In this document: piece by piece, positions 10,931 through 39,671 of the stretch
Position numbering within the stretch: position 1 is the stretch's first letter
Layout: the number at the start of each line of letters is the position of its first letter
NCBI RefSeq assembly: GCF_036785885.1
Contig: NC_092323.1
Span: 5,310,501-5,374,500 of the forward strand
DNA from: Coffea arabica
Taxonomy: Eukaryota; Streptophyta; Magnoliopsida; Gentianales; Rubiaceae
Direction: 5' to 3'
DNA length: 64,000 nucleotides
The notes under the pieces: generated by a model
Database searches by the model: none
Told to the model about the DNA's origin: nothing
Seen by the model: only the letters and a program-made list of their open reading frames with translations
Program-made: the position numbers and the translations under genes

Positions 10931-11094
10931 TTGTTTGGATAGAGAGAATTTGGTTTGCAAAATTTATCCTCACAAATCCCAATCACCTTTTTATCTTCCC
11001 AATCACCTTTTTATCTCACATACATCACATCACAAAAAATGCTACAGTAAATATCTCAAATAAATCATCCAAATTCTCTCTATCCAAATTTTCC
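10931..11094. mobile_element. MITE with perfect 20-bp terminal inverted repeats
   Basis: TTTGGATAGAGAGAATTTGG at 10936-10955 is the exact reverse complement of 11069-11088. The core contains CACATACATCACATCACA and AATGCTACAGTAAATATC. Related copies lie at about 24808-24970 and 48903-49047, with a probable inverted fragment at 9985-10115. No coding capacity. I could not see a convincing target duplication. The family looks like a hAT-type MITE, but this is inference from the ends. Confidence 0.7.
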
Positions 11095-12615: not shown

Positions 12616-12856
12616 GACAATCAACTATGAAGTCAGCCACCCCTAATAAAAAGACTGATTTTTTTTTAGGTAAAAAGACTGAATTACCCTGGTCATCAAG
12701 AATCTTAGACAATTCTTAGATTGTAATTTGACAATCGTCCCATGACTTATCAACTACAAAGTCGGCCACCCCTAATAAAAAGACTGATTTTTAAGGTAAA
12801 AAGACTGAATTACCCTGGTAACCAAGAATCTTAGACTATGCTTAGATTGTAATTTT
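12616..12856. repeat. tandem duplication, period 129 bp, two diverged copies
   Basis: TCAACTATGAAGTCAGCC at 12621 recurs as TCAACTACAAAGTCGGCC at 12750. Both copies continue through CACCCCTAATAAAAAGACTG, ACTGAATTACCCTGG and CTTAGATTGTAATTT. About 110 bases per copy are clearly alike, separated by a short non-matching spacer. No coding potential seen. Confidence 0.85.
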
Positions 12857-13509: not shown

Positions 13510-15485
13510 ATGAAGTTCGATTCAAAGGAATTCAGGCTGCTGGATTTAAACTCAAGTGGTTTTGTTCCAAAGTCCATTTCAGATTTGCTAGCAGAAGTTT
13601 CAATGATCCCCGATATTCCCCTGAAGTTGTCCAAACTAAACGACTATGTCTGTGTTTTGGAGCAAGAAATGAAAAAGATCGATGGTTTCAGACGTGAACT
13701 CCCCCTCTGCATGCTCCTCTTGAACGATGGTATGCCCCGTTTTTTCTCAACTCCTTTTTTTCCCCTTTTTTCGGCTTGAAAAGAAAAAAGGGATATGGTG
13801 TTAACTTTACTGTATACATTTTTTCAATTTCATCTGGTCTACAGCTATTTGGAAATTGAAGGAGGAGGTGGTAAAGTTGAAGAAGAGAGAGGTGGAGACA
13901 GTTGTGATGGAAGAATTCATGCCTCTAAAAGGTAATTCAGATCGTGAAGATGAAAGACCCAAAAGAAAGTCAGCTGATTGGACTGACAAGAAGACTTGGA
14001 TGAGCTCTGCTCAGCTTTGGACCACTCCCATCCAATATGAAAACGGTTTTGATACTGTCAAAATTCAAGACGCCTTTTTTCTCCATCAAGCCGTAAGTTT
14101 TTTGTCATTTTTTTTCCCTGAACATTTTAGGTAACCTTATTGATTCTTCTTCACTTGTTTTATATTTATTTTGCTGATTCCAGAGGCATCAAGAGCGGAG
14201 TGATGGAGCAGCAAGGTGGAGCCTATCTGATCAGGCACGGAGTTTCAACAAGAAGTTGGGAGGGGCCTTTTTGCCTTTCAAGAAGCCAGGTGGTGCTGTG
14301 GTGACGAAGACAGAGGTGGAGGAGGAGGATTACCCGCTAAATGGGCTGTCTTTGTCAATGCCAGCACTGGCTGAGGTGGGCTCAGATGATCTTACGAATT
14401 CAAAAGGCAAACATGTTGGTGTTGCCAGTGATGATGGTACTGTTGTGCTATCAGAGGGTGGTAGTTCATCCCAGACGACGCAGGGCAAGAAACAGAGGCG
14501 GTGTTGGTCGCATGATTTGCATCAAAATTTTGTTAAAGCCCTCTTCGAACTTGGAGGTGCACAAGGTATCCAAAAATTTCACTGCCTTCTGGGATTTTTG
14601 TTTTTGTTCCTGCTGTCTCTTCTGGAATTAAGTTACTCCTATTCATCTTTCATTCCCACGGGAGTAAATACTATCTGAATCTTTTGTGGGTCTACGAGGG
14701 CTTGCGAATTTTTCGGTTCAGGTGTCTGAGAATCTGACATAATTTATCCTGAACGGGTGTCTGAGTAAGGACATTGGTTTTTTTTTTTTTTGGGTATCTT
14801 TTTCTTTTCCCTCGTCCTCCATCGGTTTCCAATCGACTTTTTTGAATCGAGTTTGGAATAGAATAGCAAATAAATTTGTATTCATGAACAAGGAGGCCTT
14901 GATCTAAGGATCTGCGAGCGCAAAATGCATTCTTTCTCTAAAACTTCCCTGCCCTGTTCCAATCTGCATTTGCTACATTCGGGAAATTGCTGTACCATGT
15001 CGTGAATTTAGAACCATCTACCTGATATGTTCATCCAATTCGCAGCTGCCACCCCAAAGCACATAAGAGAAATCATGCAAGTGGATGGCCTGACCAATGA
15101 TGAAGTGAAAAGCCATTTGCAGGTGAGTTTTCAATCTGCATGCAAAGCTTCCTATAACTATCTGGCTTTGTTTTGGTGAATGCCACGCAATGACGTGGAA
15201 CTTGGTCCGAATTTGCAGAAATACAGGCTTCATATCCGAAAGCTGATGCCAAGCTCCTCAACAAGTGCGTCGCCAAATTACGAGTGGCTGAGAAGGGGAG
15301 AACGCAGTTATTTACGAAAGCCAAGCGCCAAGCAGTCTGCTTCTCCTGAAGGGCCTTTGCATTTAGCAGGCGGCGGCTCAGCTAAAGGGGCGTCAGTTAC
15401 TGGCGGTGAAAGCATGGAAGAGGAAGAGGATCGGAGATCGGAAAGCTGCAGTTGGAAGGATCGTCATCAGAAGCCAACAGATTAA
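13510..15485 (+). CDS. HHO/HRS1-type G2-like Myb transcription factor (HHO5/HHO6-like)
   Basis: Nuclear transcriptional repressor of the HRS1/NIGT1 family, several members of which act in nitrate and phosphate signalling. Exons 13510-13729, 13845-14092, 14184-14565, 15046-15122 and 15219-15485 join in one frame to 397 residues, all with GT-AG introns. The N-terminal conserved block runs [20 protein letters not shown] ... [20 protein letters not shown] ... [16 protein letters not shown], and is coiled-coil-like. The GARP Myb domain is [20 protein letters not shown] ... [20 protein letters not shown], ending [12 protein letters not shown], split over exons 3-5. Position 2 of the SH(A/P)ELH-like motif is His (WSHDLH) where WSPELH is usual. 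An LDLN word near the N-terminus (residues 12-15) could be an EAR-type repression motif. The ATG at 13510 is the first in frame. The C-terminal tail is acidic and serine-rich. Best match by memory is HHO5/HHO6 rather than HRS1 itself. Confidence 0.92.
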
Positions 15486-22400: not shown

Positions 22401-25400
22401 CGATCTTCAAAATTTTTTTTTTTTCCAGGATCCCAATATATAAAGATAGCAAGGTATCATATAACACTCCAAAAAAAAAGAAAAAAGAAAAAAAATGAAA
22501 AAGAAGTTGGAGAGAGACAGAGTGTGAATAAATGAGACAAAAGGAATAAACGATATTCGGAATGCAAAGTTTGAAAGGTTTAATGGGTAAAGTCAGTAGC
22601 ACTTGGCATGTTTTTTTAATGCAGTCCTCACCATTATTTTTATTTTAGTTTAGATCCTCGCTTGTGTCAAACTTAACATTTTGACCTTTTGTATTTTTTC
22701 TGATTTTTCAAGCGCCTTTGCAACCAATTGAACTACGGCTTATTGTGACTTTCGTGTTGAATTCTTCTCATTTCAATTCCACCGAAACAATTAACACATT
22801 ACTCATTCCTTTTTTTTATTATTATTTTAGCAAATGTTTTCTCTTGCAAATTTGCAAATTTTGTTGTTTTGAAGAGATTGTGTAATCTCACACTTTAACA
22901 AATTCAAGTTTATAAAAAAAAAAAAAAAAAAAAAACCACGTCTCAAAAGCTTAGAGGGTTGGCTGTATTATTCTTTTTTCTTCATTGTCAAAACAAGTAC
23001 ATCAATTAGGAAGATTATTATCCAATTTTGGCTAATACCATCCATCCGTTATTGGAATATGAGAATCTTAAAGATTACAATTCATCCATGGTTGCTTATA
23101 ATACGTGTATTTTTTTTCTTGGTAATATGCAAAGTTTATGAACCCTTGTCATGAATTAATCATTTTTTAATAGAAGGTTATTTTTCAAATTCTTTCTCTC
23201 TTTTTATTTCTTTTCTTCTTTTCATTTCTATGCAAATACTATGTCTCGAATTGTTTTTAAATAAACAAATGAAGTGGCAAAAACATAATGTCAATCACTA
23301 TGCAACAAAACCACACCAAAATATAGGTTGAAGTTAGTAGTGTCTTTTGACCAAGTATATCCAGTACTGCTTCATAGGTGATGGGAAACTTGCAAATTAA
23401 CATTTTGTGTGGCAATGCCTAGTCATAATTACATTTAAACACCAATCATTAATTGATGGTGATTAATTAAATATGTTTAAAACTATGGAATGTGACTTAT
23501 AGATATAGATGAATTCAAAGACTTAGGTTACCATTCATCAATTAGTAGTACTTGTTATCTATGAAACTAATCTTAGATTTGTCAACAAAAAGGAAGAAAA
23601 AACTACACTTTTAAATTTAATTTTTTGGCTGTATTAGTTTTCCTCTTAAAGGTTTATTATTTCTTTCTATTTGCATTATATGAATATAGAGTTAAATATT
23701 GGGTCATAATACAAGGGAAATTTGAAAGAATCTTATGTAAAGTTCAAGTATAAGATTAATTATTTGATCACTACATTGTATTATGTTATCTAAGTTCCAA
23801 ATTTTTTTTATAAGTTATTGGGCGATAGGCAATCATAAAATTTGTTGAGACGATATTATTAAAAAAAAATGCAAAATATAGCTTTTTGTTTGTTGTTAAG
23901 CCTTGAAAATATATGTGAAGAATTTTAGAAAACTCAATTTTGGTTTTAATTTAGGTATATCATACTCCTAGATAGATTGAGAAAATTTACCAGATGAAGT
24001 TTAACATATTTAAAACTAAGGTATATAACAAAAAAATATTTTTAATTTTTTGTGGGGGCAAAAGTTTAAATCTAATAAAAATACTTAATATTTTAAGATG
24101 AAAAAACCTAATTTATCTAGAATTGTGCTGTGCCCTCCGTTGTTCTCTATGCTTATACTTAATTTCACTTTTTAAATGCATACTTGAAAGAATAACATGA
24201 ATGAGTTCAATTAGTTAAATACAACATGCAATCTAATCTAAACAAAATTCGTGTTTCATACAGTACTATTGTGTGTGTCAATATATATATATATATATAA
24301 GCAAGTTAGATGCTTGACATGTATACCATCTATTCAAATTTTCAAATTCTCTATTTTAATATATATGAATTTATCTTGATATTCATTTGTCTTTTCATTT
24401 TTTTGACAAGTATCCAAAATTTGTTATGTCAGATTGGTATTAGTATGACACAATAACTACATGGATTACAACAAACATGATAGCAGATTATCGTGTTATC
24501 CTTTCGGTTGGTTGGCATGCAATACCAATTCAACGCTTGAAAAGTTCTAAACTTGCTATAAATTTATTTCGGGATAGAATATTCTCCTACTGCATGCACC
24601 ATTTTGATTTTATTATTCTTATACTTGCATTGGTGATTTATCTATGATTTTCATCAACTTGTAACTATACTTTGTTTGAGTAGCAATGTCAATTTTACCC
24701 AGGATCTTAGTCTTCCATGAACGCTTTTTTTTTTTTCCCAAAAAATAAAAAAAGTTAGAAAAGAAAAGAAAAGAAAAATCTCAGAGTGCCTAGTGCTCAT
24801 GTAAACAATTTGGATTGAGTATTATTTCCCCAATTTTATTTGCTTACATCATCATTACAATTTTCAATATATCTTTTTATCTTCCCAATTACCTTTTTAT
24901 TACACATACATCACATCACAAAAAGTGCTACAATAGAAATATCCCAAATAATTTATAATCCAAACAAACCCATCAATAGGAGATTAACTCTCTATGGCTC
25001 ATTAGATTAGGTCATTTCGTAAAAAGTGAGATTCGTTGCCATGGAGGACTCAAACTCCCCGCTGTCAGATTCAATCTTGGATCTGACAGTTAGAGATAAG
25101 AAATAATGTATAGAGGGTTAAGAGGTTAAAAAAGAAAAAAATGAAATTAAAAAAAATTAGTTTAAGTGGAATGGGTTAGACGGTACAATAGAAGAGATTG
25201 TGAATGTGAGGTTTCAGATTCGAACCGCTCAATTACACTTTAAAAAATAAAAGAAAAGTGAAATTGGTTGTCTACGGGGGATCTTGTATGATTATGAAAT
25301 AAAAATGATTTGATACAAGGTCATTATTAAGCCGTCCAATTCCGCACAAGTTACTAGCCAGGGACCTTCTGGTTTGGGCCACGGTGTCACTAACCCGAAC

Positions 25401-25996
25401 CAGTTGTGCCGCCATGCATGGAAGCTCGAAGACCAAATGCGGTGGTTTTGGGGCTTTCAGGGCACCGGGGTCTAAAGACATTAATTAACCCAATTTGCTG
25501 TCAAAATGTCATCGAAGTGACAAATGTGACGTATCATAAACCATCCACTGAAAGGCTGCGCACCAAAACCCCATACCATTTATGACTTTCCACATTTTGA
25601 CCATTGGCTACAACGACTTAAATTTCACTTTTACGGAATTACGATTGCAATAGCTCATCCCTTTGCGCCATTTCACATGGCATTTTCCTCAAAATACATT
25701 CTCCAATAATAATACTAAAACTTATTTCATAGGCAAAATAGCAATGCTCTTAGTTTTCGCACATTAGTCAGTATGATCTCCCGAAGCCAATCGTTAAAGG
25801 GAGGAGCCAATACCCATAGTCAATGATGCAAGAAAAAAAAGCAAAAGAAAAATTAAATTAAAAAAAAAAAAAGAAACAGAGGGAAAGAGAAGAAGGATGA
25901 GAACTTCTACAATTGCAACTACAGTTCATGACTTTTTTTTTAACCATAATTAACGTCGTTCTATATATATATATAGTTTAAGTAGTACATAAAGGT
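22401..25996. other. AT-rich intergenic region upstream of LBD36
   Basis: LBD36 promoter at the left edge. The rest is AT-rich with no supported gene. It contains a degraded MITE (about 24808-24970), an AT dinucleotide run at about 24282-24298, A/T homopolymers and a short hairpin near 25058-25090 (CTGTCAGATT ... GGATCTGACAG). Confidence 0.55.
24808..24970. mobile_element. MITE, same family as the copy at 10931-11094
   Basis: Starts TTTGGATTGAGTATT and ends TTATAATCCAAACAAAC. The core TACACATACATCACATCACA and AAAAGTGCTACAATAG matches the 10931-11094 element. Interior diverged, no coding capacity, target duplication not clear. Confidence 0.6.
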
Positions 25997-27731
25997 GCTA
26001 TGGTTGTGTTTATATTTTGACTCCGTATGGATTAAATATTATTGAGAATGTTTTTGAAAAATTTTGTTTAGATTATATTTTTCTGAACTTTTTGTAGAAA
26101 AATTATTGTAACGATTTAATATTGGGAAAATGGTCAAATTCGTTCCTAAACTTTTTTTAAATGTTGATTTAATCCCTAATTTTTGTTTTCGGCCAATTTG
26201 ATCCCTAAACTTATATTATGATTTCAATTAAGGATTTTTACGGCGGCGCAACCAGAAAAATCGATCAAACTTCTTATTAACCAATTAAACAGGGGTATTT
26301 TAGGAACTTTAGATATCTCATCCCTCTATCATTAATATCCACCGCTTGCCACCCATCTATTCTTCTTTCATCCCACCTCTCTTTACCCTCCCTCTATCAT
26401 GTCAGTAATTATGCCTGCCATTCCTAGTGTTTGCCTGGTTCATATTCAATCCATTGTGGCATGACTTCTTCACGCTTTATTCATCACCGAACAATTAAAA
26501 GTTTTGAAATCCCATTTACCGACGTTCTCTTCGGGGGATTGGGGATTGTGGGAAGTGGGAACCATTTGCCATCAAGTTAGCTTAAGTCGTTGGTTAAGCA
26601 ACAAAATTCCATCTCGAAGGAATCCAATCGCAATAACTAGTTTTTCTCGTCTCAGAATGATCAAACAGGGAAACAAATGATGATTAAGGAAAATAATGGA
26701 TAAATGTAATCCAACAATTTGTCCATTTAGATTATAGGATTTGAAGGAAAGATCTAATGAACGAGTTAATTGGAAACACATAACTCAAATAAGAGTTCTG
26801 CCTTTTTTTTATTACTTTGGCAAAAGAAGAAATTGCCACAAAACACTTGCGTACAGTTTTGGGACAGAGTGCGCCTGCCGGAACAAACCTCCCCCCCTCC
26901 CCACAAACACAAAAAAAACAAAACAAAACTCCCAATTCCAATTACTTCTCCAAAAATATTACCAACCAAAAGAAAAAACGGGGGAAAAATGAGAGTAAAA
27001 GTAAAGTAGTAGCTGCTGCTCCACGTACCAGTAGAAAAAGGGCCTGAAAAATCAGCTAAGCATTAGATCTAGGAGAGTGATACTGGTGACTTTCTTATCG
27101 CAAGATTTTTTGAAATTAATTGCTTGGCCCGCTATTTAGCAATCGGATCCAGCCAAGAAGCTGACTTGTTTCTCTTTGTTATGATTTTTTTTTTTTGTCT
27201 TTTTCCCTCGCTAAGACCAGGCAAACACTAGGAATGGTTTTTTTCCCTCGTCTCCTCCTTCTCTCAGTCCACCTCTCTTTCCCCTCCCTCTATCATGTCA
27301 GTAATCACCAGGCTAAGAACATGCAAACATTAGAGGGAGGGAAAAGAGAAGAATGCGGGAGGGAAAAGAAATGTGGGGTGAGAGAAGAAGGAGGAGATAG
27401 GTGGCAGACGGTGGAGGTTGATAATAGAGGGAGGAGATATCTAAAATTTCTAAAATACCCATGTTTAATTGGTTAATAAGGAGTTTGATCGATTTTTCTG
27501 ATTGCGCCACGGTAAAAATCCTTAATTGAAACTATACTATAAGTTTAGGGATCAAATTGGCCGAAAACAAAAATTAAGGATTAAATCGACATTAAAAAAA
27601 AGTTTAGGGACGAATTTGACCATTTTTTCTTTAATATTTATGAGGTAAAAAAGTAATTGAAAAATATATCCATAAAAAATATAACAATTTTTTTAAAAAA
27701 AATTACAATCCAAACACACACTTAACATAGC
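25997..27731. mobile_element. older MITE split by the insertion at 26124-27629
   Basis: Left arm begins GCTATGGTTGTGTTTATATT. The reverse complement of the right end reads GCTATGTTAAGTGTGTGTTT, then GGATTGTAATTTTT. The two outer pieces (25997-26123 and 27630-27731) together look like one AT-rich MITE of about 220 bp interrupted by the inner element. Ends are imperfect and no outer target duplication is certain. Confidence 0.5.
26124..27629. mobile_element. non-autonomous long-TIR DNA transposon (Mutator-like), 1506 bp
   Basis: Arms of roughly 230-270 bp are inverted copies of each other. The left arm reads GGGAAAATGGTCAAATTCG ... TTTTCGGCCAATTTGATCCC ... TTACGGCGGCGCAACC. The right arm carries the reverse complements ending GAATTTGACCATTTTTTC. 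The element is bracketed by the 9-bp direct repeat TTTAATATT (26115-26123 and 27630-27638). Long TIRs plus a 9-bp target duplication are the hallmark of Mutator-like elements. The interior (about 26440-27210) has no transposase frame and no gene fragment that I recognise. The right arm also holds a rearranged pyrimidine-rich piece: CCTCCCTCTATCATGTCAGT occurs in direct orientation at about 26388 and 27282. Confidence 0.85.
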
Positions 27732-29233
27732 GTGTATACAAAAAATTTGTTCTCTTAACCATGTATCAATGTAGACTTGCCACTTACATGGTCGCTTCTA
27801 TGGTGGAAAGTAGGTTGACCTGCCCACCGTAGGCACAAAGAGTGCTAGAAGGACAGCTCAGCACAAGCATCTCTATCCATGTTTTTGGGGCCCAATTGAG
27901 AGAAGGTGACCGGCAAAGCCTATTATCATCTGAAGGAGCTAAGAGCAGATACTAATATAAATTGGGTTGGGTGGTTAAATAAATTAGTGAAACCATAGAT
28001 GCTATACTGGAATAACAATAATAGCAAAAGATCCTATAAGTGTAAATTTTGATTTTTACTTTATCATCAATTGCATTTTTTGCTTGCTTGTTTCAATGGA
28101 TTTGCTATCATTAGATAATCCTATCACAACAAAATCTTTTAATTCAGCACTTACTTTTAAGTGTACATTTTGATTTTTACTATGATTTGATTATCCTTAT
28201 CATTAGATCATTTTAATATTTAAAAATTCTCAAATTTTGGCACTAATTTACTGGTCAAATTTGTGATTTATAGTTTGTCATATCCAGTACAACTAGTTGC
28301 AGAGTTAGAATTTAAATTCATAACCATCTAGTTATTTTAATAGTTCAAACGTTCAATTTTTGAAATTTTGTATTATGTGATTTATGTTTATGATTATTTT
28401 ATCTACAATCTCAATTCTATTTTCTTGGTGTATTATGTTAATTATATTTATAATTACTCATCTACAAATTTGATATCGATTTGAAAGTTACCATGTTTCG
28501 TATAAGATTACTTATCTAATTTCTAAATTAAAATTAAAATCTACCAAGTCAATTATGTCACGATTCTGGTTTTTTGTAACACTATGTTAATTATGTTTCT
28601 AAGTATTCATCTACAATTTTGATTCCAATTAAAAAAATCACTATCTATGAGGACTTAGTTAGAGGGATCGCTGTTAGTATAAACTTTTTAATATCATTTT
28701 CTAAACTTTCAATTTTATCCTTAGGGAAAAACTTTTAATTTTTGCTCTAATTGCTTAATCACATTTTGCCAATATAACTACCCTAAGTATTGTAATTACC
28801 AAATTACTATAACCTTATGAACCAAAATTTTTCAATAAATTATTGTGAAAAATAAAATTTTTATAAAATTAATTCCTTTTAATTATTTATGTATATAATT
28901 ACTCATCTACGCGAACTAACAATTAAATTTAATCCTTAAGATTGGAGTACACATAAATACATTTATGGGCTTTTAACTTACCAAAATTGCCCTTTAAATA
29001 CATTTATGGCCTGGGAGCTGCTCCCCAGCTGATGCCAATTTTTGGGTGCAAACAAGTGCCCATATGTTGTCGAGGAGCTTGCTTTTTATTTCTCATTGAA
29101 ATAGAAGGGAACCACATAATCAACCACTTCTACCCACCTGGTGTCTAGTAGTTCATTTAATAGCTAGCTCTTGCCCAGCCCCGCAATGATGTCTTGGCCA
29201 AATTTCGTTTGCTCTTCCTACCATGCACAGATG
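27732..29233. other. AT-rich intergenic sequence
   Basis: No supported gene, and no repeat with clear ends. Sequence is about as AT-rich as the flanks. Confidence 0.5.
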
Positions 29234-30092
29234 CAGGGACGGAGCCAGAAATTTATTTTTGGGGGGGCCGAAGTGTATTAAAATTTTTTTTTTGTGACGA
29301 AATAAATATATTTAATAAGTAAAATTTAGAATCAATAATTATAAAAATAATAAAAACATATAATTATATGGAGAATGATTAAAAATGGTAGCTCTGCAGG
29401 GAGGATCTGGATATGTTCGAGGGGTACGATATCAGAATGTGAGAGTAGATGACGTTTCAAATCCCATTATCATTGACCAATTCTACTGTGATTCGCCGAC
29501 GCCTTGCCAGAACCAGGTATGATTCACCCTCTAGCTTCATGGTTTTCCAGAATAGCTGGTTAATTGGGAACCAGACGGACTTTGTATTTTCTGCTCTCTT
29601 TGGTGAATAAACTCTGAATGATACTAAAATTCGACAAAAAAAAAAAAAAAGTGCAGGCAATTGTTTATCTACTCATCCTTAAAATATCCTGACAACGACT
29701 TTTTATATCCAGAGTTCTGCAGTTGAAATAAGTGAAATCATGTACAAGAACATTAGCGGGACTTCCAAAAGCAAAAACGCCATGAAATTTGCATGCAGCG
29801 ACACGGTTCCTTGCAGCCACATTGTGCTGAACAACATCAACCTAGAATCTAGGGATGGTACCGTAGAGACTTATTGCAACTCTGCCATAGGGTTTGGGTA
29901 TGGATACGTGCAACCCTCTGCGGAATGTCTGACCTCATCAGACAAAGAAAAAATCATCAAGCAGGAGCCTGAGCTTGCCCTCTGCGGAATGGCTGGGCTG
30001 GCCGTCGGAATCCCCTATATATAGGGGGTTTTCCGGCGGCTTGGGGGGGGCTTAAGCCCCCACCAGCCCCCCCCCCCATAAATCCGTGGCTG
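29234..30092. mobile_element. small hAT-like element carrying polygalacturonase exons
   Basis: CACAGATG occurs at 29226-29233 and at 30093-30100. The repeat may be read as 10 bp, since TG precedes both copies. Between them the left end is CAGGGACGGAGCCAG..., and the reverse complement of the right end is CAGCCACGGATTTATGGGG; both start CAG, share ACGGA and run into long G tracts. An 8-bp duplication and CAG...CGGA termini fit hAT-superfamily ends. There is no transposase. Instead the element holds two exons and one intron of a GH28 polygalacturonase (separate entry), so it is a gene-capturing non-autonomous transposon of about 859 bp. If the duplication is truly 9-10 bp, a Mutator-like origin is the alternative. 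Confidence 0.75.
29400..30024 (+). pseudogene. captured C-terminal fragment of a polygalacturonase (GH28) gene
   Basis: Two exons (29400-29516 and 29713-30024) with an intact GT-AG intron between them. Exon A encodes GGSGYVRGVRYQNVRVDDVS ... FYCDSPTPCQNQ. Exon B encodes SSAVEISEIMYKNISGTSKS ... ESRDGTVETYCNSAIGFGYG, then VQPSAECLTSS. These match the last quarter of plant polygalacturonases (pectin-cleaving cell-wall hydrolases), just after the RIK motif. The catalytic NTD, DD and GHG motifs and the signal peptide are absent, so no enzyme can result. Both exons are free of stops. After about residue 120 the frame continues into non-polygalacturonase sequence (LCGMAGLAVGIPYI) and stops at 30022-30024. 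The intron shows the segment was copied at DNA level. CCCTCTGCGGAATG is repeated at 29914 and 29978, perhaps a repair scar of the capture. Confidence 0.88.
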
Positions 30093-31479
30093 CACAGATG
30101 AGTCAGCTTTCCACCATAGACGGAACCCCACTTACATTACACCTGTACCTCCTAGCTAGCTACGAGAAGAAGCACTGCTGTAGTTAAATTTGGGACCCAG
30201 GGTGAGGGAACAAAAAGGAACAACTGAGGTTTGGAGTAATGGTTGGAGGGCGACGGGTGAGACCCAGGCAAAATGTAGTGAAGTACTGATATCCGGACGA
30301 CTGCCCCACTGCCGTGCCTGGCCCCTGACCCGGAGGCAGAGCGCGGTAGGCCCGTGTCTGTGTCAGTGAGCAATTGCTTCTTCCTGCACGGCCTCTCACA
30401 TTTCATTGAATGTGCCAGTGTTTTAACCCTTCCGCAAATTACATTTTTCTCTTAGTCACGTGTTCAAATTACCCTTTAGTATTTCTTTTCGGTTTTTTTT
30501 TTCTCTTTAGAACTCAAAAAATAGCAAGCCATGAAAATTGCAGCATTTTTCATGCTAGCTGCTATTTCTATGTATTTTTTTATTTATTCATTTCTTAATC
30601 TTCCATCCCTCTCTACGGCATTTTCACTCCAACTGTCATCAGACACATAATTGAAATTTCGAGTCTCACAATGTAATAACTATTCTATTCATGTATGTCG
30701 TATTATATTAATTAGGAGTTTAGGCCCGCCAGCTAATAGAGCTTGAGATCGATCAAGAAACATAAACATAAGCAATGGAACTTGATTTTTATGCGTGCTC
30801 TAGAATTCTCCATTAATTACCAACTAGACAACGTGTCCGTGCTACTAGTGCATTTCATTTTGAGGCCCTCCACGGAAATAATGCAAGAAATTATGGTGAG
30901 CATCGAATTACTGAACATAAAATTCTAGATACAAGGCGAGTTTTCCTTGCCATACTATTGGATTCTGGAATTTTCATATAAAGTTGGAAGGCGGTGGCTC
31001 ATGCATGCACGGCTGACTAGTCAGCCGGAGGAATTAGTATCGGTATCACATACATGCATCTGCAACCAATGAATGAATGGAAGATATTTCCAGTACTCCC
31101 CCGTCTGGCAATATTTCGGTCAGCAAGGGGGGTTGTTTTATTAAGTATTAAGCTCGTCATTAGAATTTCCACACCACCTAATGCCATGATTCACGAACAT
31201 AATTCTCAAAATTATTTTCATACTATTTTCCTATATCACATTCTTATAAGTAATGACAAATTTAATGCCAAAAGTCAAAACAACGTGTTTAGGCATCCCA
31301 AACCTAAATATAAGGAGACTGGGAGTCGTGGTAAGTGGTGGCTTTCTCATTGGTCCATAGTGAGTAGTAGTTTTGTGCAATTTTTGTTATAATAGTAGCA
31401 TTTCCGTTTCTTTTATTTTTGAGTATTTGGAAAAAAAAAAAACAACAACAACAGCTTAGTAGTGGCATTTTTCTTGTTC

Positions 31480-31665
31480 ATATCCGTTTGGATTTTTCTT
31501 TTTTTTTTTAAAAAAAAAAAACAAGTTTTTCAAATACAATATTACAGTAACACAAATTAAAACAAGTCAAAAAAAATCTTTAAAAAAAGTTTTTTATATA
31601 CACTGGTACAGTGAAAATTTTCAGAAACACATAAAAAAAAAATAGGTCATCCAAACTTGAAAAAG
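31480..31665. mobile_element. MITE-like element ending CCGTTTGGAT ... ATCCAAACT
   Basis: Left end CCGTTTGGATTTTTC and right end GGTCATCCAAACTTG are imperfect inverted repeats. The interior is A/T-rich with TATTACAGTAACAC and GGTACAGTG words. Target duplication not seen. Confidence 0.45.
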
Positions 31666-31747
31666 TGATCATGCAGTAGTGCACATAAAAATAATTCCTG
31701 AATGAATGATGTTTTTAGTTGATGCCTCCCTTACATTGCCGTTACTT

Positions 31748-31779
31748 CCCCCCCCCCCCCCCCCCCCCCCAAAAAAAAA
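31748..31779. repeat. C23 homopolymer followed by A9
   Basis: Twenty-three consecutive C residues then nine A residues. Unusually long for plant DNA. A similar C25 tract lies at 58485-58509. Confidence 0.9.
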
Positions 31780-32410
31780 TTCAATCTGACCCTGGAGGGG
31801 ATAAAAAAGAATTAATGAAGCGGCGTTAGAAGATAAGAGATCCATTAGGACCCAATTTTAATGTTTCTCCACCCATATGTCTAATACTATTAAAACGCAA
31901 TCTTACCCATTGAATGATTGATTTAAGGTTGACTTGACCACATCCTATTCAAATCACTTTGTCAACGAATTAAACAAGGTATAATTACAATTTCATGTTC
32001 TTTAACCTTCCAAAGTTAGAGTCACAACAACGAGGGGGTTTCATATTTTCCATCTGAGAGTACCAAGTTACTCGAGTTTGATCCGACAAATACAGTTTTG
32101 CCTGCTCGTCTATGACAAAATCAATACAGTAAGCTATTACTACCAGTATACAACAAGCCTTTTATTTCAAGTCGCATAAGAATTCAAAAATTAGAATTAC
32201 TGCACTTGACGATCCAACCACCACACTTTTCCGTTGCATTTAGACGCCCAAAAGCCCCTTAATATTTACGGTCCAGTTGGTTTACCCAGCCACATTTAAG
32301 CCCATACATTTACAAGTTCAGCCCAAAGGCTTAAACCCCTTGAAGACAATCTACAACAATCAACCCTACATTCGAGTCATTACTGAATCTTTCAGCATTT
32401 CCGCAATACA

Positions 32411-35238
32411 ATGTCCACGTGGTGGCGCGCGGCTGCCGGAAGCCTCAAAAGAGCGGCGGAGACTCCCAAACTCCGATCTTACCATACCATCCAAGCCATT
32501 CCAAGAGAGGTCACAGGAAGCAGAGGCTCCGCCAGAGACAGGGCCGAAGGCCGCATCCCGGCCGTCGTATTCTCTCAGAGCTACATCCAAACGAAGCCGG
32601 GCGATCCCACGTCCGTTTCTCCTTCGTCATCCGTCTCCAGAAAACGCCTCCTCACCACCGAGAAGAAGCAGATTAAAGCTATTCTTAACTCTGTGCAGCT
32701 CCCTTTCTTTTATTCAACCACATTTCCGCTCCAAATCCGGGCCGGGTCGGGTTCTTCTACTCTGATTGACTCCGGCAGAGTGCTTCCCATCAAGGCAAGT
32801 ATGCGCTGCGTCACTCAGGAATCCCCATTTTTTTTAATTCAATTTGGCGGACAAATGATTGGTCAGGCCGCCGATCAGTGTGTTTTAAGTGGTAGTAGTA
32901 GCTTAGAGTGCAGGTGGTAGGACATGCTAATAATTGTGTTGTATTGCAAAAATGGACATTGTGCTAATTCCTTGAGTATTTGATTATAGATTCATAGAAA
33001 TGAAGAGACAGGGGAGATAATGAACTTGGTGTTTGCATGGGCCGAGGATGGAAAGGAAATAAAGGTGGATGTGCCCCTCGTCTTTAAAGGGGAAGATGTT
33101 TGTCCCGGGATTCAAAAAGGTCCATTTTTCTTTGCTACGCATTCTGTTATTTTTCTTCACATTTCTTTCTTTATATTTTTTTTTCCAATTTTCACATTTA
33201 ACATGTTGAGAATTTGCTATTTATGGGAGGATTTTAGTTAGAAACGGAAAAGAGAGGATTATTGTAGCATTTGTGAAACGATTAGTGTCAAGGTGATTTA
33301 GTTGCGCATTAGCTGATTGAGATGGCTCATGGCAGCTTCGATTGGTGACGCCCAAAAATTTGTAGTGCAAATGTAAAAACTAAACGTTAGTTTGTTGCTT
33401 TTACCTTTTATGAGCTTATCCTTTTCTTTTCCTTCTTAATGCTACACTTGGCTGAAATTTTTCTGTAATTTGAGGATGGGTGAGCTATAAATTGTGAAAT
33501 CTTTTAGGCTTAGTTCGTGAAGAAGAGAAGAGAAGAGATAACTTGAAAGCTTTCTTTAGGCTTTTGCGAGTTTTGGAAAGAAAACAAATGACTATGGACA
33601 AATTAGGTTTTGAGAGGTTGTTCTCTATCATTTGACAGAATTTAGTACCATTTTTATCTGTTTCTACCCATTTCTCTTCTTCATTGGAGGGAGTTCTTTT
33701 TCAGACTATTAAACTTTCTAATTATTCTTATTTTGCTTTTGACCTGAAACTCACAAAGAGCTTTTATGTTTAGCAGCTTGCTCTTCTTTTTCTGTCCAAC
33801 TATTTCCATCTCAATATGGCTTCTGTATTTTAATCAATTGAACTCTTTTCAAATCTGTTTATGGATTTCGAAGATGAGGACTTACAGATTGACCAGCTTT
33901 ATGATTTGATAGGAGCTTAAGGTGAACATAGAGGAGAAGTCACTTTTCTATTGGTTGGCTTATGCTAATTCTCCCAATGGGGTATGTTTGCAGGAGGAGT
34001 GTATAGAAACTGGAGGAAGTAAACAAGGGTGATTGCTGTGAAGCTAAACTAAGTTATCTTATTGAGGAATGGTTTAAACTTTTTAGTTTCTATTCTAAAT
34101 GAGATGCATGCCGTAGCTAGGACTAGGCATTACTTTATGGGCTCAAAAGATATGGTCGTCCATTATCGACTATTCTTAGGTGCCTTTCCTCTGAGGTTGT
34201 GCTATTGCATCAAACCCCGCTTAATCCTTTCAGGAAAAGTTTAAAAGGAGCATTTGGTGTAATATCATCACTCATCATTTAATTTTGTTTATGTCTGTCA
34301 GAATGCGAGTGGTAATATTTGTGTGTCTTCTAGAATCACCATGTATGACCAGGGTCCATGATAAATAGGTGCTGCTAATGGTTGTACTTGGTCCTACTAT
34401 TTTACTCCTATTCTTTTGCTCCTTCTGAGATATCTTGGTGATTGTATATCTAGAATATGGTATGTTTTCTGTTGTTATGTTTTGACTTGATTTTCACTAC
34501 TATTTGTTAGATTTCTGCTTCATTATGGCAAACCCACTCGCCATTGAGATTAATGGTGTAGGTTTTTGCCGACCTGGTCGAAATCAAATGCGTTAGAATT
34601 TAGATGAAGAAATGTTTTGGTCTTTATCTTGTCATATTAAACATATAGAATTTGTCTTGTCGATGCTTTGAAAGAATGGACTTCATTGTATGTGCCTATT
34701 GTTTTGACCATTTTTCAACTTGATAAATTCCAGCATCATTACTTTGAAATATCCAGAAATGGGAAAGGCAAATATTTCTTGACCAATTTGATTAGTTGTT
34801 ACTGTCTTTCTGTTTTAGAAATTGATAAGGGGACCAAAATTTTGATGCCTGTGGAATTAGGCACCTATCTCTTTCATCTGGTTTTGAATGTTGAAAATTT
34901 GTAGTTCTACTCTTTCTTGCAAATGGTTGTTAAACTTTCTTGCACGTCATTAACTCCTGTGAGATAATCGTGACACTTATGTGAATTTCTGCTCTTTTCT
35001 TTTCTCTGTAAAAGCAGGAGGTTATCTACATATTGTGAGGAGGAGTCTAAGATATTTATGTCCAGCTGAGCACATCCCTCCAAAGATCGAGGTGGATGTA
35101 AGTAAACTAGATATTGAAGATAAAGTACTGATGCATGAGATTGATGTTCATCCAACCTTGAAGCTTCTGAGTAAGAATGAGGCGATGCCTGTATGTAAGA
35201 TTTTGGCTTCAAAGATGCAAGACTCGGAGAGTGCATAG
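32411..35238 (+). CDS. bL25-family ribosomal protein, mitochondrial (L25/TL5/CTC)
   Basis: Component of the organellar large ribosomal subunit that binds 5S rRNA. Exons 32411-32794, 32990-33119 and 35018-35238 give 244 residues. The N-terminus (MSTWWRAAAGSLKRAAETPK) is rich in Ala, Arg and Ser with no acidic residue in the first 16, as in mitochondrial presequences. The L25 core follows: EVTGSRGSARDRAEGRIPAV, then RVLPIK | IHRNEETGEIMNL, FAWAEDGKEIKVDVPLVFKG, then the C-terminal TL5 part (EHIPPKIEVDVSKLDIEDKV, MHEIDVHPTLKLL). Intron 1 begins with GC rather than GT (AAG|GCAAGT at 32795); the nearby GT at 32799 would put a stop straight after the junction. Intron 2 is 1.9 kb with a weak donor, AG|GTCCAT. 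Arabidopsis homologues AT5G66860 and AT4G23620 have the same domain layout, and AT5G66860 sits beside MAPKKK5 and LBD36 as here. Confidence 0.92.
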
Positions 35239-36379: not shown

Positions 36380-37600
36380 TGGTGTTCTTAAAAAAAGTTG
36401 AAAAGCTAATTTTGAAATTCATATTAATAAATTTAGTCTCTGCCTAGATTTCCGACTAGTTTTCTGTTGGAATTCACTACGTGTCTTGCACGTAATTATT
36501 TTTTGAGGGCAAAATTGTTAAATTAAATTTTACATAATCCAATTCATGGTTCCTCACATTTCACAAAATGAAATTTTTTATCCCTCACATTTTACAAAAT
36601 AAATTTTTTCATCATTCACATTTTCAAAATAGATTTTTTCATCCCTCATTGATCATGTGTGCGAATAATTTTTTTTAAAATCCATGCATATATCTATTTG
36701 ATTTCAGGTGAAATCAAATAGAGATGTATTACATGTTATCCGTACTACTCAAGTGAAATCAAATAGATATATACATGAATTTAAAATTTTTTTTAGTTAT
36801 TCACTTATATTTATTTTATTTTACTCGATAATTAAAAACAAATAAGACATTTAATCCTAAATATTATCGAATGTTTATATCAAAATAAATTTGGATAGAA
36901 AAAATAAACAAAGAAAAATATGATAAAAAGAATAAGTGATTGGCACTTTCAAATTAAAGACAATCACAAGGCAAATAATTCAACTCTTGGTCTTAAAAGT
37001 GACGAGTAGAAATTTTAGATTCAAATTGCAATTTGTTAGCATAACTATAGAATTCGAATTAGATGGTATTATTATACAACTCAATAAATAAATTATTACC
37101 AAAAGAGATAGTCACAAATATTGAATAGGTTCACATTGTGAAATCATATAGATATTTACATAAGTTTAAAACAAAATTATTAGTTTTAAATTCCTGTATA
37201 TATCTATTGAATAGCATATATATAACTACGATTAGCCTATTTAGGTGAAATCAAGTAGAGATATATTATACGTTATTCGTACTATTTAACTGAAATCAAA
37301 TAGATATATACATGGGTTTTAAAAAAAAAAGAGATTATTGGTGCACATGATCAATAAGGGATGCAAAATTTATTTTTAAAAATATGAGGGATGAAAAAAT
37401 TCATTTTGTAAAATCTGAGAGATGAAACAATTTATTTCGTAAAATGTTAGGGATGAAAAAATTCATTTTGTGAAATGTGAGGGACCATGAATCGGATTAT
37501 GTAAAATTTGATTTGACAATTTTGTTCTTAAAAACTGATTACGCGTAAGGCACGTGGTGGATTCGAACATAAAATTAGTCGAAAATTTAGGTAGGGACCA
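36380..37600. mobile_element. non-autonomous DNA transposon with very long inverted repeats
   Basis: Two arms of about 350 bp are inverted copies. The left arm (about 36400-36780) holds CCGACTAGTTTTCTGTTGG, CACTACGTGTCTTGCACG and GTGAAATCAAATAGAGATG. The right arm (about 37210-37600) holds their counterparts in reverse (CACGTGGTGGATTCGAACAT, AGGTGAAATCAAGTAGAGAT). Within the arms a word like GAGGGATGAAAAAATTCATT recurs about three times in a row (37385-37480). The left outer end is more diverged and no target duplication was identified, so borders are approximate; the right end could extend to about 37710. Mutator-like or related long-TIR MITE. No transposase seen. Confidence 0.7.
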
Positions 37601-39671
37601 AATTTGATCAACGTCAATTTGTAAGGGACGCAAAATTACACTTTTAAAAATGAAGAACAAAAAAAAGTCATTTTGTAAAATATAAAAAATATTTTGAACG
37701 ATTTTTCCTTAAAATTAATTGAGAATATGTACTAAATCCACTTATTTTATCTTTTGCATAAGTAACATGACAGAAAAATGGATTTAAACCAATTTGCAGT
37801 CAAGTTCAACAATCCAATTGGAACCTCATTTACCATATTCACATGCATCATCCCTTCTTTTTTTTTTTTATACAGTACATATTTTTTGGCTTGCAAATGA
37901 AGAGAGTCAAATGCAAAGTATAGTGAGCGTGGAAAATTTTCTCGGTCTTCCGGAGGCAGGCTCCGTAGACTTTCTTCATTGATTTCTTCTCTGAGGCTCC
38001 GCCAGGCTTACTGGGTTCGAGGTTGTACGGCGAACTGTTTGGCATTCCGTGCCAGCCCCTATGCGACAGGCGACTGGGTCATCAGTCAACACTATATTCC
38101 GATAACTGTAATATATAAAATTGGAAAATGCTACTCTATTAAAATAAAGTGAAAGATAACTCAGCTGCGCGATGGTAATATAAAGTCGAAAAATGTTACT
38201 CTATAATTTTTTTTTTACTTTATAAATTTTTATATTTATATTTATCGCTTAAACTTGTAATTTTTAATTGCTTCTTGCAGGTAAATTTTTGGTGTTTCAT
38301 CTTTAGAACGAGTTTCACTGATAGAGAGTTTTTCTACACAATTTTCTCTTATGTCCAGATATGCCCAACGGTGGACGGAGTAACAACTAACAACTAGGAG
38401 TATTTTTATTTTTATTTATATTTAAAAAAAAGAACAACTAAAATTATTAGTAAATCAAAAGTGCCAATTTTTTATACATTATTTGTAGTTTAAATTCTAA
38501 TATATATATTTTTATCGATTTTGCTTAGTTTTCACTTTACACCCCTAGTTTCTTGCATGCATCACTTTGTCCCCTTAACCTTATAATCTTTTTCTTTTTG
38601 AGTAACAAAATTTATTTTATTTTATTTATAAACACTCAAAGTTAAACTCGATTATCTAGTGTGTTGTATGTGCTCTTTCCTAGTTACCAAAGCATAGAAA
38701 ATAGCACTTGATTATGAGTGTAACTTACAAGAAAGGTTGCTTAAATTATTTTTTCTATTTTCAAACTAATCATAACTAATCGTACATTTCTAACAAGAAA
38801 GAGTAAATTTTTTGATATAATAAGAAGGTAAAAAGTTACTTACTTTACAAGATAAAAAAGAAAAATCCAAGTGGACTTTGGGCTTGTTCATAAATGGGTA
38901 TAAGGACTTGGTTTTAACCTTTGATTATAAAACAAATTAAGTAAACCTTTTATACACTCACGGTGCATACATCATCATGATTGGAATTATTATGTATTTA
39001 ACGGTGAAAGTGTATACACAATCAGTGTGTAAAAGATTAATTCAAAAAGAAATTTGATTTATTTAAAGACACAATAAACTAAAAACTAATATTTTTTTGG
39101 GGGGGTTCACTTCTAACTGTAATTTTGAGAACTAAAAGTAATTTGGAACACGCTTTTTGTGAAGTCGTTTGAGGTTGGTAGTTGGTACTTAAAAATCCAA
39201 ATAGACAGAGTGAATTGAACAACTTTTCTCAATCCCGTTCCACTCTATACGAGGATGATAAGGGAGAAATTTGTGAAAAATAGGGGTGAACAAATTGCAA
39301 AAAGGGAAAATGAGGAAAACAGAAACAGAAAAGAGAAAAAGTCTAACTGTCGACCTTAGCTAATTTTAAAAAGTGGCAGGACATATTGACCTTTGGAGGG
39401 AGACAGCCTCCTTCTCTCTCCGCGGTCTTCCCCACTCCTCCATTTTTTTTTTTTTTTTGGGTTGTCTGGTGGAGCTACGTTCTTCTCGTAACCGCGTTTC
39501 TTCAGATTTTTGCTTCATCTTCTTCCTCCTTGATTAGATTTGCATTTTGTTTAGTGAATTTTAGTTTGTTTTCTTGATTCAATTAAGCTCCATCTTCCTA
39601 CGGTTGGTTGGTTCTCATAGCTCGAATAAAATTTTAAATTTTGCGAATTGAAATCCATAATTTCCTTGCCC

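Follow-up and report, generated by a model that had tools for sequence, protein, structure and literature searches.

A short piece of a polygalacturonase (glycoside hydrolase family 28, GH28) gene lies in a 64-kb stretch of Coffea arabica DNA, here called the window, between sequences that resemble the ends of a hAT transposon. Was this piece captured by a mobile element, as an initial annotation proposed, or is it the remnant of a gene that decayed in place? The setting is that of a plant nuclear genome: of ten frames tested against Pfam, nine match families at E up to 0.001 and the tenth matches none (the window holds 271 stop-to-stop frames of at least 60 codons; those listed have at least 75). 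The families above the Pfam cut-off are LOB, DEK_C, SWIB, peroxidase, cyclophilin (Pro_isomerase), WEMBL and patatin, and two protein kinase pieces are matched below it. Our reading, to which we assign a probability of about 0.88, is that the locus is a non-autonomous hAT element, probably of a Tip100-like lineage, carrying a genomic copy of the C-terminal piece of a plant polygalacturonase gene (Pack-TYPE capture, or transduplication).

The polygalacturonase cargo

The interior of the locus is made up as follows.

29388..29516, + strand: captured GH28 exon (PF00295 221–262), aligning with the W/Y-Q-GGSG segment of 8ikx_A and 7b8b_A
29517..29712, + strand: retained GT-AG intron, 196 bp, phase 0, 65% A+T
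29713..29940, + strand: homology-supported part of the captured GH28 C-terminal exon (PF00295 262–316)
29941..30024, + strand: continuation of the spliced open frame to the stop TAG at 30022–30024, beyond the supported homology

Once spliced, the interior matches the Pfam family Glyco_hydro_28 (PF00295) with an E-value of 1.4e-22 over profile positions 226–316 of 324. Without splicing, two frames match separately, over positions 221–262 (E 5.1e-07) and 262–316 (E 9.5e-09), and their GH28 spans meet at position 262 when the intron is removed. The GT-AG intron and this joining of the profile support the initial annotation in its view that two GH28 exons were captured with their intron at the DNA level. 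Because the intron is retained between the two exons, it was DNA that was copied and not a spliced message. The best relatives of solved structure are 8ikx_A, 7b7a_A (‘Pectin lyase-like superfamily protein’) and 7b8b_A (polygalacturonase ADPG2, which we take to be the Arabidopsis enzyme), with E-values of 1.2e-23 to 1.3e-22; a fourth, rhamnogalacturonase A, follows at 5.8e-10.

The outer limits of the cargo are less sharp than its intron. Homology in the upstream exon begins at about 29388–29397 and is secure from the GGSG at 29400; the CAG at 29397–29399 may be either the glutamine codon of the W/Y-Q-GGSG segment or an intron acceptor. On the other side, the Pfam match stops at about 29880 and the alignment to 8ikx_A at query residue 120, at about 29940. 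The first part of the continuation that follows (29941–30024) is probably still polygalacturonase and the last part transposon end.

The spliced frame runs for 147 codons, from an ATG at 29385 to the TAG ending at 30024, and both captured exons are open, without stops. The initial annotation had called the capture recent on account of these open exons. Their openness is confirmed; the capture may be recent, to judge from the open frames and the exact duplication described below.

The GH28 catalytic domain is incomplete, whether judged from the spliced match or from the two frames, which together extend over 221–316. In this family, the catalytic motifs are located before the GGSG segment. Since no more than roughly the final third of the domain is present and the catalytic motifs precede the captured segment, the cargo would not be expected to produce a working enzyme. 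It is extremely unlikely that the 147-codon frame, whose stop lies within the right transposon end, is transcribed to give a small chimeric protein with a GH28 tail, or an RNA that regulates the parent polygalacturonase gene; in that event, a Tip100-like element would have brought about exon shuffling.

Element ends and target site duplication

The following features frame the cargo.

29234..30092, + strand: whole putative non-autonomous hAT-type element, 859 bp, delimited by inverted ends and an 8-bp duplication
29226..29233, unstranded: left target site duplication CACAGATG
30093..30100, unstranded: right target site duplication CACAGATG, an exact 8-bp match to the left copy
29234..29244, + strand: left terminal inverted repeat CAGGGACGGAG, matching the Tip100 terminal repeat CAGGGGCGGAG at 10/11 positions (PMC12511174, in its account of that repeat)
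30082..30092, − strand: right terminal inverted repeat CAGCCACGGAT, 8/10 to the left end, with 4 mismatches in 11 to Tip100
29245..29387, + strand: left subterminal region, A+T-rich with a G7 tract at 29261, presumably transposon-derived
30001..30078, unstranded: right subterminal hairpins, a palindrome at 30001–30040 and a G8/C-tract hairpin at 30043–30074

The direct repeat around the element had been given as 8 bp and up to 10 bp. The 8-bp repeat is exact and has the length expected of a hAT insertion, and CACAGATG occurs three times on the two strands of the window against 1.44 expected. The 10-bp version, TGCACAGATG, is owed solely to the element ending in CTG and the left flank ending in ATG. 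The element starts with CAGGGACGGAGCC, and its 3′ end read on the other strand is CAGCCACGGATTT. Over 10 bp, the short inverted ends (CAGGGACGGA on the left and, reverse-complemented, CAGCCACGGA on the right) agree at 8/10 positions and differ at bases 4–5. The pattern CAGSSACGGA has exactly one further occurrence in the window, at 14232.

Taken by itself, this structure is not significant. An unanchored scan for 8-bp repeats with inverted ends agreeing at 8/10 or better, 300–5000 bp apart, returned nine pairs in the window, where 40 order-1 simulations gave 5.9 on average and never more than 11, so the duplication and inverted ends without the Tip100 resemblance fall inside the simulated range. 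The structure becomes significant because its left end fits the published terminal repeat of Tip100, a hAT element. On both strands of the window, CAGGGACGGAG is the sole site within one mismatch of CAGGGGCGGAG (12 more sites have two mismatches), and it coincides exactly with the left edge of the element, beside the duplication. None of the 40 simulations contained a pair with an end matching at least 7/10 bases of the Tip100 end. Among the 8,999 left-end positions whose 10-mer has at least six G/C, the element's own was the only one with a matching right end and duplication 100–5000 bp away.

Several other observations count against our reading: the right end departs from the left at bases 4–5 and agrees with Tip100 at only 7/11 positions, similarity between the ends is weak past the first 10 bp, and the ends have no further copy in the 64-kb window. 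We dropped longer inverted ends as a feature, as they are within reach of chance (random end pairs scored as well in 422 of 20,000 cases at 36 nt and in 8,194 of 20,000 at 60 nt). On balance, the exact 8-bp duplication, the 8/10 inverted ends and the Tip100-like left end support the hAT-type frame originally proposed. Six-frame Pfam scans with E up to 0.1 found no family besides GH28 in the element, and no transposase either within it or in about 5 kb on each side. A degenerate left-end pattern had no matches in public bacterial and archaeal contigs or in viral contigs, as expected for a plant element. When the terminal-repeat strings were sought in the literature, only PMC12511174, among the 20 papers listed of 67 that contain at least one such string, and judged by title, concerned a transposon; in the part of PMC3823963 that deals with Coffea transposons, Tip100 is mentioned without end sequences.

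The G-rich subterminal tracts are also present, with the G7 on the left and G8 (30043), C5 (30057) and C11 (30067) on the right. Compared with the rest of the window, the left subterminal region gave, besides itself, only matches of 12–18 nt among those listed. With DNA folding parameters, two hairpins form in the right subterminal stretch (z −2.86; one of 200 shuffled sequences is equally good). From 29996 to 30078, a palindrome with a TATATA centre is followed by the G8/C-tract hairpin, an arrangement that could possibly serve as a signature for other members of the family.

Origin of the chimera

If the fragment were what is left of a polygalacturonase gene that decayed in place, its transposon-like ends being due to chance, other parts of that gene might be expected nearby. 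The initial annotation had suggested looking for 5′ exons just outside the direct repeats, and none were found within about 5 kb on either side: with every stop set to X, six-frame Pfam scans of 24252–29233 and 30093–35074 (E up to 0.1) gave no GH28 match and returned a single row, Ribosomal_L25p, below its cut-off. The same method applied to the element as a positive control detects GH28 in two of the six frames, although very short exons might escape it. Across the 64-kb window, tblastn and blastn detected the fragment only once; the other hits were the 18-bp repeat within it and short matches of low significance (E 0.37 and above). The lack of GH28 in about 5 kb on each side and of another copy in the window makes a decayed local gene unlikely. 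The nine end-and-duplication structures, against a mean of 5.9 in simulation, leave some room for ends by chance, whereas the Tip100 match, which abuts the duplication exactly, has no equal elsewhere in the window, and the open exons and intact intron bear no mark of decay. We thus consider local decay very unlikely. The arrangement resembles that of a Pack-TYPE element, with host coding DNA, the GH28 fragment and its intron, lying between terminal repeats.

How a hAT element may have acquired this DNA can be outlined. When a break within such an element, left by excision or arising at a fragile site, was repaired, the polymerase may have switched template to a polygalacturonase gene, copied exon, intron and exon, and then rejoined the other transposon end; a transposase acting in trans would have moved the chimera to its present site, unless capture followed insertion here. 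For animals, the account of capture in PMC8277862 gives two routes: in one, gaps are filled with template switching within a transposon already in place; in the other, transposition follows the template switch. For maize, PMC3260210, where it touches on mechanism, cites a suggested origin in replication errors made while excision breaks are repaired.

Whether capture came before or after insertion, the exact target duplication is equally accounted for. A plain hAT element may thus have inserted first and received the polygalacturonase piece later by gap filling, the chimera never having transposed. This is a version of the capture reading, differing in the order of events alone, and the odds of the two overlap; we regard it as quite possible, if short of probable. 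In the parts of PMC8277862 that deal with animal Pack-TIRs, a transposition-independent route is given for most single-copy cases, and short shared sequence is present at one or both breakpoints in 67.6% of the Pack-TIRs; the 18-bp repeat at the right junction, described below, could be repair filler. Nothing favours later capture over capture before insertion, however, and the donors in the same account are biased to cis, whereas the 64-kb window contains no donor, although one farther away on the same chromosome is possible. A different construction, in which two hAT ends from separate insertions came to lie around a polygalacturonase piece duplicated in another way, would account for ends that differ (8/10) and for unlike subterminal sequences. 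However, hAT elements usually have unlike subterminal regions, and a single insertion event is indicated by the exact 8-bp duplication that immediately adjoins the two ends. Such a nested product is, if anything, slightly less likely still than local decay.

The initial annotation had also singled out a 14-bp repeat as a possible mark of the capture junction. Its two copies extend over 18 bp.

29914..29931, + strand: first copy of the 18-bp repeat, matching the second at 17/18 positions
29978..29995, + strand: second copy, in another reading frame and adjoining the right end of the transposon; possible junction filler

The repeat, CCCTCTGCGGAATG(T/G)CTG, is real. Counting this one, the window has six sites with close 18-bp repeats (15 rows collapsing to six), and it is therefore weak evidence; as proof of a capture junction we reduced it to suggestive. 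The second copy adjoins the right end of the transposon in a different frame from the first, and so could have arisen as filler during repair.

Related systems and neighbouring features

Under the capture reading, the element is one more case of gene capture by hAT transposons, set apart by the gene concerned and by a left end that resembles Tip100. The closest parallel is maize Ds2-22 of the Ac/Ds group, as portrayed in the relevant part of PMC3260210: also a non-autonomous hAT element with an 8-bp duplication and with two exons and an intron copied at the DNA level, its ends being of 11 bp and its cargo exons 5 and 6 of a host gene. Unlike the present element, it carries ILR1-like3 and belongs to an Ac-type lineage, and its donor and chromosome are known. 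The same account reports gene fragments in two Ds2 and nine Ds-l4 elements, Ds2-22 among them, and calls such capture rare for hAT. In grapevine, the Hatvine-6 family, as introduced in PMC2528002, has variable interiors that frequently correspond to host-gene introns and exons; its members share transposase-coding sequence, whereas the present element has no Pfam transposase match. The Pack-hATs of maize, in the description given in PMC8903248, are likewise non-autonomous hAT elements with captured coding DNA; in contrast to the Tip100-like left end seen here, they were sought by the core ends of Bg (maize) and Ac (rice) and are described for maize. Tip100 of Ipomoea purpurea, in the lines devoted to it in PMC12511174, has a terminal repeat that the left end matches at 10/11 positions and makes 8-bp duplications, but is autonomous and 3.8 kb long, and the present right end departs from it at four of 11 positions. 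Pack-MULEs and gene-carrying CACTA elements, as they figure in PMC8903248 and PMC2528002, are also DNA transposons that capture and mobilise gene pieces; they belong to other superfamilies with other ends, and MULEs make 9-bp duplications (PMC2528002).

Gene capture by hAT elements is less of a novelty than the initial annotation had implied, since Ds2-22 and Hatvine-6 are already in print. Capture of this kind is not surprising, given the precedents in maize and grapevine. A limited literature search found no published capture of a polygalacturonase by a hAT element, its one hit being an unrelated review on microbes of fruits and vegetables. The locus offers a small, well-bounded example of gene-piece capture in which both ends and an intact intron can be read in one sequence.

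Several other repeats were observed in the window. To the left of the hAT element, at a distance of 1.6 kb, is a Mutator-like (TIR-MULE) element about 1.5 kb long (26124–27629). It has inverted arms of 243 nt that are 89% complementary, ends GGGAAAATGG and GAAAAAATGG that agree at 18 of 20 bases, and an exact 9-bp duplication, TTTAATATT, at 26115–26123 and 27630–27638; its six frames gave no Pfam match at E up to 0.1. Another pair of inverted arms, 36429–36639 and 37395–37605, is 211 nt long and 83% complementary, and a 31-bp tandem repeat (37367–37515) overlaps the right arm; no convincing target duplication was found for this pair. A dispersed 71-bp direct repeat at 10987–11057 and 24873–24943, 89% identical, is perhaps a small interspersed element. 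Finally, a local duplication occupies 12620–12855, with a spacing of 126–129 bp and 93% identity.
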